Shown here piece after piece: positions 29,214 through 32,794 of a stretch of DNA of 34,611 nt. The position numbers were made by a program, and so were the translations under genes. Position 1 is the first letter of the stretch. The number at the start of each line of letters is the position of its first letter. Location of the stretch: positions 1-34,611 of the forward strand of contig JADGPX010000003.1 of NCBI GenBank assembly GCA_017882215.1, given 5' to 3'. A model generated the notes under the pieces. The model was given only the letters and a program-made list of their open reading frames with translations, did no database searches and was not told where the DNA came from. This DNA comes from Chitinophagaceae bacterium (GTDB lineage Bacteria; Bacteroidota; Bacteroidia; Chitinophagales; Chitinophagaceae).

Positions 29214-29414
29214 TCAACATCCCCGCCTGACCAGTGTCAGTCGGGCAGGATTGTCCCAATAGCTATCGGGACTCATTTATAGAGTTCCATTTTTACTCAG
29301 CATTTTTGGTAACGCAAAGAACGCTATAAATTCACTAAGAGCCGCAAAGAAAAACTTTGCGATACACTGTCTGCCGTCAGGCAGGTTTGCGTTTTTCTTT
29401 GTGTTCTTTGCGAT
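29214..29414. repeat. Composite dispersed repeat, copy B (inverted relative to copy A)
   Basis: Reverse complement shares GCGTTCTTTGCGTTACCAAAAA, GAGTCCCGAT and GGGACAATCCTGCCCGACTGACACTGGTCAGGCGGGGATGTTGA with 3347-3525. Confidence 0.85.
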
Positions 29415-29431
29415 ACAAATCTAAAGATCAC

Positions 29432-29677
29432 TCACTTGTACTTGTTTAAAACCACAGGAATTCCATCACATTTTTCAATGGCAAATTTTACAAGTGTTTC
29501 TTTTTCATCTGTAGATAATACGCTTGCTTCTCCTAAAGTTCCACCTAATACAATTCCATCCACACCTGCTTCAAGTTGCGCATAAAGATTTTTTTGAAAC
29601 ATTGAAAGATCCAGCTGATCATCTGCTGTGAATTTGGTAGTAAGTGCAGGAAAAATTCCCTGCCATTGAATTCCCAT
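29432..29677 (-). pseudogene. 5'-fragment of a dihydrodipicolinate synthase (DapA)-family gene
   Basis: QWQGIFPALTTKFTADDQLDLSMFQKNLYAQLEAGVDGIVLGGTLGEASVLSTDEKETLVKFAIEKCDGIPVVLN then KYK*; family members are about 300 aa, so the C-terminal ~70% is missing. Confidence 0.82.
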
Positions 29678-29861
29678 AATTTGTCAAAATTTTTCACAAA
29701 CTACGAATAGAAATTGAATCTGAATTCTAAGAAAGACAGTTAAGTTTTAATGAACAAAAAGTAAGCTTAAAAAAGATTATTGCTTTCACTAAACTTTCAC
29801 AATTCTTCCTTATCCATAGCATAATATTTGACGTATATAAAGTATAAAAAAAGGAGTAAAT

Positions 29862-30452
29862 ATGTCACGATTAAAAAGTTTTTATATACTGGTTTTAGCT
29901 GTTGGTGCTATGCTGTTAAATAGTTGCGGAACTTCTGCTCATATAGAAAAAGATCCGGCAATAAATCTTGCAAATTATAGAACTTATTCATGGACTGAAA
30001 AAGATAATAACATTACAAAGAAAAAAAGTCATCTGAATGACATGGCAGAGCAAAACGTTAAAAGCGCAGTGAATGCAGAATTACAAAAGCATGGATGGAG
30101 AGAGGTAACATCTGATCCTGATGTTTTACTAAGTTATGATCTTGTTATAGAGAGAAGCGTATCACAACAAAGAGATCCTGTATATTCACAACCTTATACC
30201 AGGACTTACTTTAATCCTTATACCAGAAGGTTTGGAACAATTTATTATCCTTCTCAATTTTGGGGATACGATACTTATGATATTCCTGTAAAAGAAGGAA
30301 CTGTAATGATTTCCATGATAGATCCTAAAATGGATAAAACAATTTGGCAGGGATGGGCAACCAAACAATTAAACAGTAATCGTATTACTGCTGAGGATGT
30401 ACAAAAAAATGTAAAATCGATCTTTAAAAAGTTTGATACAGCTAACAAATAA
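29862..30452 (+). CDS. DUF4136-like lipoprotein
   Basis: Lipobox LLNSCG; DPAINLANYRTYSWTEKD; GTVMISMIDPKMDKTIWQGWATKQL. Confidence 0.85.
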   Translation: MSRLKSFYILVLAVGAMLLNSCGTSAHIEKDPAINLANYRTYSWTEKDNNITKKKSHLNDMAEQNVKSAVNAELQKHGWREVTSDPDVLLSYDLVIERSVSQQRDPVYSQPYTRTYFNPYTRRFGTIYYPSQFWGYDTYDIPVKEGTVMISMIDPKMDKTIWQGWATKQLNSNRITAEDVQKNVKSIFKKFDTANK

Positions 30453-30474
30453 CCAGCACAACAACAAATGTTAA

Positions 30475-30500
30475 TCCCGCCAGTTGGCGGGACTTTTTTT
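30475..30500 (+). terminator. Rho-independent terminator
   Basis: TCCCGCCA-GT-TGGCGGGA then CTTTTTTT. Confidence 0.85.
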
Positions 30501-30514
30501 ATGCAACCTTTTAG

Positions 30515-30586
30515 TACCACGTACGGGACTCGAACCCGTGATTCCTCCGTGAAAGGGAGGCGTCTTAACCTCTTGACCAACGCGGC
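30515..30586 (-). tRNA. tRNA-Glu (anticodon TTC), intact
   Basis: GCCGCGT TG GTC AAGAGGTTAA GAC G CCTCC CTTTCAC GGAGG AATC ACGGG TTCGAGT CCCGT ACGTGGT A; all four stems pair; CCA not encoded. Confidence 0.95.
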
Positions 30587-30593
30587 ATTTATT

Positions 30594-30845
30594 TTAAGAG
30601 GACGGCAAAGATAATTGTTTTTGTATGAATTTTTTGCCTGCAGATGTTTTAAGATATTTCTCTCTTATTCTTCCCTCAGTAAAATTTAAAGCCTGTTCGG
30701 TATAAATAACTCTCCACGGCTTATAGGCAGATGTAAATTTTGATCTTCCGGCATTATGTTCTTTCAAACGGTTTTTCAAATCTTCAGTCATGCCAACATA
30801 AAGTTTTTTAGCAACCATGCTTTCCAAAACATATATAGTAACCAT
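30594..30845 (-). CDS. GIY-YIG nuclease domain protein (short, UvrC N-term-like)
   Basis: TIYVLESMVAKKLYVGMTEDLKNRLKEHNAGRSKFTSAYKPWRVIYTEQALNFTEGRIREKYLKT; start 30845 or 30866. Confidence 0.92.
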   Translation of the reverse strand: MVTIYVLESMVAKKLYVGMTEDLKNRLKEHNAGRSKFTSAYKPWRVIYTEQALNFTEGRIREKYLKTSAGKKFIQKQLSLPSS

Positions 30846-30861
30846 AAAAAATAAAAAATTA

Positions 30862-30880
30862 CCCATACTCCACGTATGGG
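30862..30880 (-). promoter_or_regulatory. Hairpin CCCATAC-GTGGA-GTATGGG plus T-rich tract (possible terminator/attenuator) at the 3' end of the tRNA-Glu copy
   Basis: Perfect 7-bp stem; minus strand continues TAATTTTTTATTTTTTATGG into the GIY-YIG start. Confidence 0.6.
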
Positions 30881-30966
30881 ACTCGAACCCGTGATTCCCT
30901 GCCTGACTGCGTCACGCAGGCAGGCTCCGTGAAAGGGAGGCGTCTTAACCTCTTGACCAACGCGGC
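30868..30966 (-). pseudogene. tRNA-Glu(TTC)-like copy with 27-nt palindromic insertion and altered 3' end
   Basis: Identical to the intact tRNA for the first 42 nt; insert CCTGCCTGCGTGACGCAGTCAGGCAGG; then GAATCACGGGTTCGAGTCCC identical; then CCCGT>CCCAT, acceptor end T>A, discriminator A>G. Confidence 0.88.
30898..30924. repeat. 27-bp palindromic insertion inside the tRNA-Glu copy
   Basis: Plus strand cctgcctgactgcgtcacgcaggcagg; absent from the otherwise identical position in 30515-30586. Confidence 0.92.
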
Positions 30967-31081
30967 ATTTATTTTAAGAGGACGGCAAAGATACTCTCAG
31001 GCATTTTCGCTGCCAAATTTTTTATGTTATAAACATGCTTATTCATTTATTGTGCATGATTGTATTATTTTTGAGCATTCT

Positions 31082-31105
31082 CCCTGCCTGTTCGGTCAGG
31101 CGGGC
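31082..31105. repeat. Palindromic element CCCTGCCTGTTCGGTCAGGCGGGC upstream of sucD
   Basis: Same family as 20612-20640. Confidence 0.7.
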
Positions 31106-31135
31106 ATTTCAATTATTTCACAATCAATTTGCAGT

Positions 31136-32035
31136 ATGTCAGTATTAGTTAATAAAAATTCCAAAATTTTAGTGCAGGGTTTTACAGGAACCGAAGGCAC
31201 TTTTCATGCAACTCAAATGATTGAATATGGAACTGATGTAGTTGGCGGTGTTACACCAAACAAAGGCGGCACAACCCATTTAAATAAACCTGTGTTTAAT
31301 ACTGTTGCAGATGCTGTAAAAAATACAGGCGCTGATGTAAGCATCATATTTGTTCCGCCGGCATTTGCAGCCGATGCAATTATGGAAGCAGCAGATGCAG
31401 GAATTGCTTTGGTGGTTTGTATCACAGAAGGTATCCCTGTTCAGGATATGATAAAAGTGAAAAATTTTTTGGCAGATAAACAAACAAGATTGATAGGACC
31501 TAATTGCCCCGGAGTTATTACCGCTGATGAATGCAAGGTGGGTATTATGCCGGGCTTTATTTTTAAAAAAGGAAGAATAGGAATTGTTTCAAAATCAGGA
31601 ACATTAACGTATGAAGCTGCTGACCAGGTAGCAAAAGCAGGACTGGGAATATCAACTGCCATTGGCATTGGAGGCGATCCTATAATCGGCACAACTACTA
31701 AAGAAGCTGTTGAATTATTTATGAATGATCCTGATACAGATGGTATTGTAATGATCGGCGAAATCGGCGGGGGAATGGAAGCAGAAGCTGCCCGATGGAT
31801 AAAAGAATATGATTATGTTGCTGAATCTCTTGGTAAAAATAAAAAACCAGTGATTGGTTTTATTGCAGGACAAACAGCACCTCCCGGTCGCCGTATGGGT
31901 CATGCAGGCGCAATTGTTGGCGGTGCTGATGATACCGCAGCTGCTAAAATGAAAATATTAAATGAATGCGGAATTCATGTAGTGGCAAGCCCTGCTGATA
32001 TTGGTAAAACAATGGCTGAGGTAATGAGGAAATAA
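31136..32035 (+). CDS. sucD: Succinate-CoA ligase subunit alpha
   Basis: [72 protein letters not shown]; start [10 protein letters not shown] inside ORF 30929..32035. Confidence 0.96.
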
Positions 32036-32041
32036 AAAAAA

Positions 32042-32064
32042 CTCTTCGTGATTGAAGAGCTTTT
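32042..32064 (+). terminator. Rho-independent terminator of sucD
   Basis: CTCTTC GTGATT GAAGAG C TTTT. Confidence 0.7.
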
Positions 32065-32082
32065 ATCTTATCTAAGTATTTA

Positions 32083-32400
32083 TTAATAGCGATTTCCTCT
32101 TATATATCTGTCTAACTCATTTCTGCTGCTTTGGCTGCTGAATAAATTCTATAGCTGTGCAAAATTTGCAGGATCAGCAACCACTCGGTATAACAATTCA
32201 GCTAACTCCAATCTGTTACTTTCTGAATTTATTAATTGCAGAAGCTGACTTAGGTTGAAAACTAAGTTGCTGTAGTATTAAATCCATTTCTTTCTGCAGT
32301 AACTTTTGCGGACTGAAACCATTTATCACATATGGTTTGCAATATTTGGCCAAATTGATAATCTGCCATTGTTATAACCACCATTATTATAACTGCGATC
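32083..32400 (-). pseudogene. Degraded DUF4476-like gene
   Basis: Minus-strand pieces: YNNGGYNNG / MADYQFGQILQTICDKWFQSAKVTAERNGFNTT / SQLLQLINSESNRLELAELLYRVVADPANFAQL*NLFSSQSSRNELDRYIRGNRY*, split by frame changes and an in-frame TAG. Confidence 0.65.
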
Positions 32401-32530
32401 TCTTTCAACACTTGTTTTAAATTTTTAATATTACAATGAGAAAAAATAATGTCAATAACTGATTTAGGTTGATAAAAATGTATGGTTATGTCATAAAGAT
32501 TTATCACTTTTATCTTCTAAAACCAACAAC

Positions 32531-32794
32531 ATGATAATCGTAGTAAATCACAAAATCAATAACCCCGAAAGCTTTTGGGCATCCGCTCAAAAAAGTTTAC
32601 CGGAATTGCCTGTAGATGGTGTAAAAAGAATTATACAGGTAATGCCAAACGCTGATAATACAGCAGCTACCTGTGTTTGGGAAGCTGACAGCAAAGAAGC
32701 ATTGGATAAATATTTAAGAAGTAAAGTTGGAGACTGGAGCACAGAAACATACCAGGAAGTAAATACTGCCGCGGCTATGGGGCTTTCTGTTTAG
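32531..32794 (+). CDS. Small conserved-looking hypothetical protein (possible dimeric alpha/beta-barrel)
   Basis: 87-aa ORF with reasonable composition (VWEADSKEALDKYLRSKVGDWSTETYQEVN) followed by a terminator. Confidence 0.65.
   Translation: MIIVVNHKINNPESFWASAQKSLPELPVDGVKRIIQVMPNADNTAATCVWEADSKEALDKYLRSKVGDWSTETYQEVNTAAAMGLSV

Follow-up and report, generated by a model that had tools for sequence, protein, structure and literature searches.

The closest characterised analogue of the elements described here is SegB of phages T4 and T6, on which Brok-Volchanskaya reportedly published an earlier study in 2008, cited in a later SegB paper. This free-standing homing endonuclease of the GIY-YIG type belongs to tRNA gene regions, cuts in tRNA genes with a motif, RAWTSGAAC, that matches the T-loop, and amplifies a segment consisting of segB and tRNA-Tyr (PMC13096335). 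Like SegB, our elements place a GIY-YIG gene beside tRNAs and occur as tandemly amplified nuclease-plus-tRNA segments, and the T-loop, which the SegB motif matches, is also where insertions are most frequent here. Unlike SegB, which is phage-borne, they are chromosomal and encode about 80 amino acids with a GIY-YIG domain only, and the SegB account describes neither a hairpin-split tRNA remnant nor a resupplied tRNA half, and in it no tRNA isotype is said to be preferred (PMC13096335). The Slx1-like or UPF0213 proteins (YhbQ, COG2827), the minimal standalone form of GIY-YIG, share the single small domain and provide the closest solved structures, although we found neither tRNA linkage nor mobility reported for them (PMC1564403). 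Elements with a tyrosine integrase likewise integrate into tRNA genes, which they restore, but membership of that class is excluded because the unit of about 0.4 kb encodes only the GIY-YIG protein, with no integrase and no second protein, such as the Y1 (RAYT) transposase of a REP/RAYT system, within the unit itself, and, in contrast to those elements, both tRNA halves appear to serve as entry points. Fungal mitochondrial GIY-YIG elements, in Allomyces and others, duplicate a gene end, and double-hairpin elements exist; there too an endonuclease ORF enters a gene and resupplies the lost end, and short GC hairpins lie in genes, but these elements are organellar and their targets are protein genes. 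In these fungi the nuclease and the hairpins are not known to form a single unit. The open full-text literature yielded no account of bacterial GIY-YIG elements tied to tRNAs, nor one of hairpin-split bacterial tRNAs, which is weak evidence, as subscription papers and most preprints lie outside that scope.

Anatomy of the tRNA-Glu locus

The window is a stretch of 34,611 nucleotides from a Chitinophagaceae genome (G000). Between 30514 and 30993 its minus strand reads, in order, native 5' flank, tRNA-Glu copy, GIY-YIG ORF, repeated 27-bp flank and intact tRNA-Glu. A first-pass annotation of the letters alone had proposed the succession of tRNA-Glu copy, nuclease ORF and intact tRNA-Glu, and sequence, ARAGORN, Rfam and Pfam agree with it. 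The parts are as follows:

30514-30586, minus strand: intact tRNA-Glu(TTC) (ARAGORN; Rfam tRNA, 63.1 bits)
30587-30613, minus strand: 27-bp 5' flank, copy 2, encoding the nuclease C-terminus and stop (sequence, repeat)
30594-30845, minus strand: GIY-YIG (Slx1-like) nuclease ORF, 83 aa (PF01541, E=8e-14)
30862-30880, minus strand: terminator-like hairpin CCCATACGTGGAGTATGGG with a T-rich tail (pattern scan)
about 30868-30966, minus strand: broken tRNA-Glu copy (Rfam tRNA with insert; alignment to the intact copy)
30898-30924, minus strand: 27-bp palindromic insert CCTGCCTGCGTGACGCAGTCAGGCAGG (alignment of the copies)
30967-30993, minus strand: 27-bp 5' flank, native copy 1, within the 69-nt exact direct repeat
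30986-30993, minus strand: -7-like promoter TATCTTTG of the Bacteroidota TAnnTTTG type (sequence)

The two tRNA copies were said to lie 380 bp apart behind an identical 27-bp 5' flank, and they do: an exact direct repeat of 69 nt (30545-30613 equals 30925-30993, spacing 380) is joined by a second block of 29 nt at 97% identity (30517-30545 and 30870-30898). The flank TATCTTTGCCGTCCTCTTAAAATAAAT is present twice, and the copy adjoining the intact tRNA encodes the end of the ORF (LSLPSS*), so that the earlier claim of a nuclease C-terminus and stop supplied by the duplicated flank also stands. Chance is ruled out by this exact repeat and by recurrence in more than 100 loci. Between the two repeat blocks, the broken tRNA differs from the intact one by an exact 27-bp palindrome, CCTGCCTGCGTGACGCAGTCAGGCAGG, which lies within the anticodon stem, in its 3' strand, and separates a 5' piece (30925-30966) from a 3' piece (30870-30897). 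The first-pass annotation omitted this palindromic insert or left it unstressed; it is the key to the element. The broken copy reaches 32.7 bits with the Rfam tRNA model, barely above the gathering score of 29, and receives no tRNA call from ARAGORN.

The terminator-like hairpin lies between the broken tRNA end and the nuclease ORF, which would be 90 aa long if it started at the upstream ATG at 30866. This hairpin arises from a base change at the broken tRNA end together with adjoining sequence and is, judged by its sequence and position, a possible attenuator. A whole-genome DNA search found no further tRNA-Glu in the assembled genome; as the intact tRNA-Glu(UUC) is the sole one found there, the resupplied copy is probably essential. 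A group I intron was considered and rejected, as an Rfam scan of 29400-32600 finds tRNAs and no intron family.

Empty sites, tRNA linkage and isotype lineages

The first-pass annotation had expected empty sites in relatives, and three sister genomes (G008, G011 and G012) carry an empty allele of the kind that marks homing elements, a single uninterrupted tRNA-Glu adjoining sucD with no nuclease. Two of them, G008 and G011, were reached via SucD (95% identity) and have a lone tRNA-Glu behind the same promoter flank, with neither nuclease nor hairpin at this site beside sucD, and the third, G012, has a lone tRNA-Glu between the same two neighbours, a DUF4136-like lipoprotein gene and sucD. The tRNA-Glu of G012 (L129 1353-1425) runs in the opposite orientation to its counterparts in the other sister genomes. 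In the window TATCTTTG leads the broken copy, and since the same flank precedes the lone tRNA-Glu of G008 and G011, it is the broken copy that has kept the native promoter flank; we infer from the sequence that TATCTTTG is the promoter of the native tRNA-Glu. The empty-site genomes have 3' flanks that cannot be aligned with G000, so that the insertion endpoints are only partly defined, the second, beyond the tRNA, not being fixed to base level in this comparison.

Our survey covered 60 relatives, 30 public loci and 248 genomes of the phylum, with close homologues defined as GIY clusters scoring at least 75 bits (n=136) and linkage as a same-strand tRNA within 400 bp. By this measure 117 of the 136 clusters are tRNA-linked, none has a tRNA on the opposite strand only, and 12 of the 19 unlinked clusters lie no more than 400 bp from an end of the stretch read. 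In 12 complete genomes the proportion is 24 of 25, in line with the earlier expectation that homologues would be enriched beside tRNAs, whereas lower-scoring GIY proteins (45-65 bits) in the same genomes, our internal control, are mostly unlinked (5/38 linked). Single-contig complete genomes show the same arrangement as well as tandem arrays, which, with the many independent assemblies, rules out the assembly artefact that the first-pass annotation had named as a danger. That annotation was thus right to see a tRNA-linked unit, but not in restricting it to tRNA-Glu: the window genome holds more members beside tRNA-Asp, tRNA-His, tRNA-Pro and tRNA-Met, and the sixteen isotypes used across the family, in isotype-faithful lineages, exclude a tRNA-Glu-only element. 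At least one nuclease homologue at E<=1e-8 is present in 162 of the 248 sampled genomes when a subfamily without tRNA linkage is counted in.

The only unlinked close homologue in the 12 complete genomes (L235, genome G121) lies inside an RNase P RNA gene. In the region 1000-1644 its ORF is flanked by complementary P1 strands, GGAAAGCC and GGCTTTCC, and by a long inverted repeat, CCAGCACATAACGTTCATTGTTC and its complement, and appears to occupy the apical loop of helix P3, a placement that comes from manual reading of the sequence, the automatic Rfam alignment putting the 5' strand elsewhere. Two lower-scoring GIY-YIG genes were also noted: one forms a seven-unit tandem array (381 bp) with no tRNA near (L213, G282:C1:541830-544319), and the other lies about 200 bp downstream of tmRNA (L196, G087), a position that possibly points to other RNA-gene targets.

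Lineages stay with one target across hosts, as those of homing elements do. A tree of 121 nucleases requires 41 isotype changes against a shuffled mean of 89.7 (0/200 as low), and the nearest nuclease from another family sits at the same isotype in 72 of 121 cases, where the null gives a mean of 10.6 and a maximum of 26 (2000 shuffles). Hairpins follow the same pattern, their similarity within an isotype across families being 0.40 against 0.316+-0.012; the identical window 27-mer recurs in the T-loop of a broken tRNA-Glu in G033 (L043), and a Cytophagaceae locus (L009) carries a variant of the window hairpin with compensating changes. Isotype fidelity alone is no proof of recognition by the protein, because the element carries its tRNA along.

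Broken tRNA copies and the geometry of their hairpins

We examined 120 loci at which the nuclease adjoins an intact tRNA, scoring second copies against shuffled controls. At 104 of them a second, broken copy of the tRNA lies across the nuclease, which bears out the direct repeats expected earlier: repeats or broken tRNA copies flank the nuclease at these loci. Among the broken copies, inserts of at least 12 nt occur in 70 and hairpins, as judged by energy and z-score, in 50, and about half lack a hairpin meeting the energy criteria. The inserts are palindromic and lie at arm loops, frequently at the dyad centre of the T-arm, and many fall exactly at T-loop GTTC^GA or D-loop TA^GA; the recurrent sites are GTTC^RA in the T-loop (n=21) and TA^GA at the D-loop end (n=11). 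Cloverleaf loops or junctions hold 61 of 67 hairpins against 53% expected (p=2e-11, somewhat optimistic because related loci are not fully independent), the window hairpin being one of six in a stem. Broken copies at six loci (L058, L067, L091, L168, L173 and L260) carry hairpins in more than one loop, two or three per copy.

The position of the hairpin predicts the side on which the intact tRNA lies. With the intact tRNA upstream, 26 of 31 hairpins lie in the 3' half of the broken tRNA, and with the intact tRNA downstream 35 of 37 lie in its 5' half (Fisher p=1e-11), a rule that would follow if entry took place at the hairpin point and the element supplied the shorter missing part of the tRNA. 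These statistics bear on a simpler history, in which an ordinary tandem tRNA duplication trapped a neighbouring nuclease gene and then decayed. The window repeat, which spans the 5' flank and nearly the whole tRNA, suits that history, but it would need the trap to have sprung at 16 tRNA types, with nucleases that are homologous and lie on the same strand, and to account for hairpins and a strict side rule as well, so that as a general account it runs against the recurrence statistics and we regard it as very improbable.

Broken copies also occur without a nuclease. In three GIY-rich genomes, 8 of 26 sampled tRNAs with no GIY gene within 1.5 kb have a broken second copy, a proportion that is no phylum average since these genomes were chosen from the high-count end; two of the eight have hairpins, and their geometry is that of the nuclease loci. 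Three complete genomes without the nuclease family at E<=1e-8 gave broken copies at 0 of 30 tRNAs (Fisher p=3e-20 for GIY-adjacent against GIY-free and p=0.0011 for GIY-rich against GIY-free). The GIY-less copies would be relics or non-autonomous derivatives. Broken copies beside intact tRNAs with no nuclease nearby were seen at L272, L273, L275, L284, L286, L288 and L289, and in G018 a broken 3' tRNA piece and its flank are tandemly duplicated as a 137-bp unit lacking a nuclease (L048, G018:C2).

The hairpins might instead be independent dispersed palindromic repeats, unrelated to the nuclease, that gather in dispensable tRNA copies. The window genome does contain 30 dispersed CCTGCCTG...CAGGCAGG palindromes (pattern CCTGCCTGN{3,20}CAGGCAGG; control 0; for example L112-L125), mainly of a shorter type, mostly CCTGCCTGCCGGACAGGCAGG, and we saw no shared insertion motif among them. 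Short direct repeats flank some of the palindromes (L119, L120 and L123). By chance, however, some 30 copies spread over 2.95 Mb could not have landed in roughly half of the 73-bp broken tRNAs, and a repeat unrelated to the nuclease would account neither for a hairpin type that tracks the tRNA and nuclease lineage across families nor for the side rule; we hold this reading to be quite unlikely.

The nuclease and a proposed mechanism

The window protein has a single Pfam domain, GIY-YIG, spanning residues 3-70 of its 83, and no separate DNA-binding region. It carries the catalytic Tyr, Arg/His and Glu of the GIY-YIG superfamily, with Y5, Y16, G18, H30 and E62 invariant and R26 and K66 at least 90% conserved among 24 divergent members. 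Its AF2 model (pLDDT 93.7) is closest by Foldseek to UPF0213 and SLX1 structures and then to I-TevI; the best matches, 1zg2 and SLX1 entries, all have E>0.001, yet a probability of about 1 for 1zg2/SLX1, and phmmer matches among solved structures are 1zg2 and 6seh. A weak PHROG match to a family named 'homing endonuclease with GIY-YIG motif' covers 32 residues only. Phage origin was rejected, as the homologues in the phage collection searched are distant (at most 34% identity) and the one inspected has no adjoining annotated tRNA.

Related nuclease pairs show dN/dS of 0.05-0.32, and the nuclease is therefore under purifying selection and kept for function. Like SegB, the family forms tandem arrays of tRNA part and nuclease, with 3-15 units that are 95-100% identical, several of them in finished genomes: the longest array inspected, behind tRNA-Asp in G018 (L072), consists of 15.5 units of 360 bp that are 99% identical, every unit holding an intact nuclease ORF plus a 3' tRNA piece split by a hairpin, and finished genomes (G292, G227 and G189) hold arrays of 5.3 x 450, 5.2 x 365, 3.1 x 323 and 3.1 x 317 bp. 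Strong purifying selection, these arrays and retention beside tRNAs in many genomes could also mark a domesticated host function, either amplification or repair of tRNA genes or a guard against tRNA-cleaving defence systems or toxins, with a precedent in SegB amplification, used by phage T6 against Septu (PMC13096335). As the units of the G018 array carry broken tRNAs only, tRNA dosage would not rise there, and patchy presence, empty sites in sister species and lineages that track tRNA isotype rather than host also speak against domestication, which we consider unlikely.

We think it probable that these loci are a family of miniature homing-type mobile elements that live in tRNA genes and resupply the missing tRNA part. 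The element is a minimal Slx1-like GIY-YIG gene set on one strand between an intact and a broken copy of the same tRNA, and from this geometry and the empty sites we infer that the unit is mobile and enters tRNA genes, which its nuclease would cleave. On entry it would insert in the tRNA gene at the hairpin point, leaving the host's orphaned piece beside the hairpin, and would bring its own copy of the shorter, missing part, such that one complete tRNA stays; entry at the T-loop would accordingly place the intact tRNA upstream of the nuclease, and entry in the 5' half would place it downstream. The first-pass annotation's proposal that a tRNA-Glu and GIY-YIG unit had inserted or duplicated, restoring a working tRNA, is supported in outline but is better put as an insertion that leaves a tRNA remnant interrupted by a hairpin and supplies the missing tRNA part anew. 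The nuclease may be read through from the tRNA promoter and freed by normal tRNA processing. To spread, it would break DNA at tRNA arms or at the hairpin, and homologous repair would copy the element into the same tRNA of other genomes, hence the isotype-faithful lineages, and sometimes amplify it into tandem arrays. The hairpin itself could be an insert that destroys the target or a substrate of the nuclease.

Several observations count against this mobile-element model. About half of the broken copies show no hairpin by the energy criteria, the window hairpin lies in a stem, and some broken copies have no GIY gene. The intact tRNA keeps an uninterrupted loop, so that a simple sequence-recognising nuclease should cut its own locus, and because the downstream copy comes with a duplicated 5' flank, a tandem duplication also fits the window. 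A version of the model in which the nuclease is directed by structure would have it cut cruciforms, formed by the inserted palindrome and tRNA arms, and not a sequence; the hairpin would then be the element's mobility signal, and isotype fidelity would come from recombination through tRNA homology only. The proximity of UPF0213 and of the branched-DNA nuclease SLX1, ahead of I-TevI, argues for this version, as do the want of an additional DNA-binding domain within 83 aa, the palindromic inserts at arm loops, often at the T-arm dyad centre, and the one GIY ORF that appears to occupy the P3 loop of RNase P RNA. Against it, specific sites such as GTTC^GA recur, SegB shows a sequence preference and many loci have no recognisable hairpin. 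We regard structure-directed cutting as quite possible though short of expected, and, being a form of the mobile-element model, it shares its probability with that model.

Our findings describe what we propose as a new form of homing-type mobile element, and there is a real chance that it represents a new class. More tentatively, we suggest that such a class would comprise structure-guided elements that plug hairpins or a nuclease gene into the loops of structured-RNA genes, at tRNA arms and, in one genome, in the P3 loop of RNase P RNA. They would exist in autonomous (GIY-YIG) and non-autonomous (hairpin- or tRNA-only) forms; a minimal Slx1-like nuclease would spread them, and one working RNA would always be left. 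The side rule and the site motifs make the element model directly testable. If it is right, a large share of the genomes of this phylum may carry tiny selfish elements in essential tRNA genes, usually annotated merely as 'GIY-YIG nuclease', and these elements would explain tandem arrays of tRNA fragments as well as broken tRNA copies. They would then also serve, in bacteria, as a model of how homing into essential RNA genes works and point to a role for the minimal Slx1-like nucleases of bacteria.
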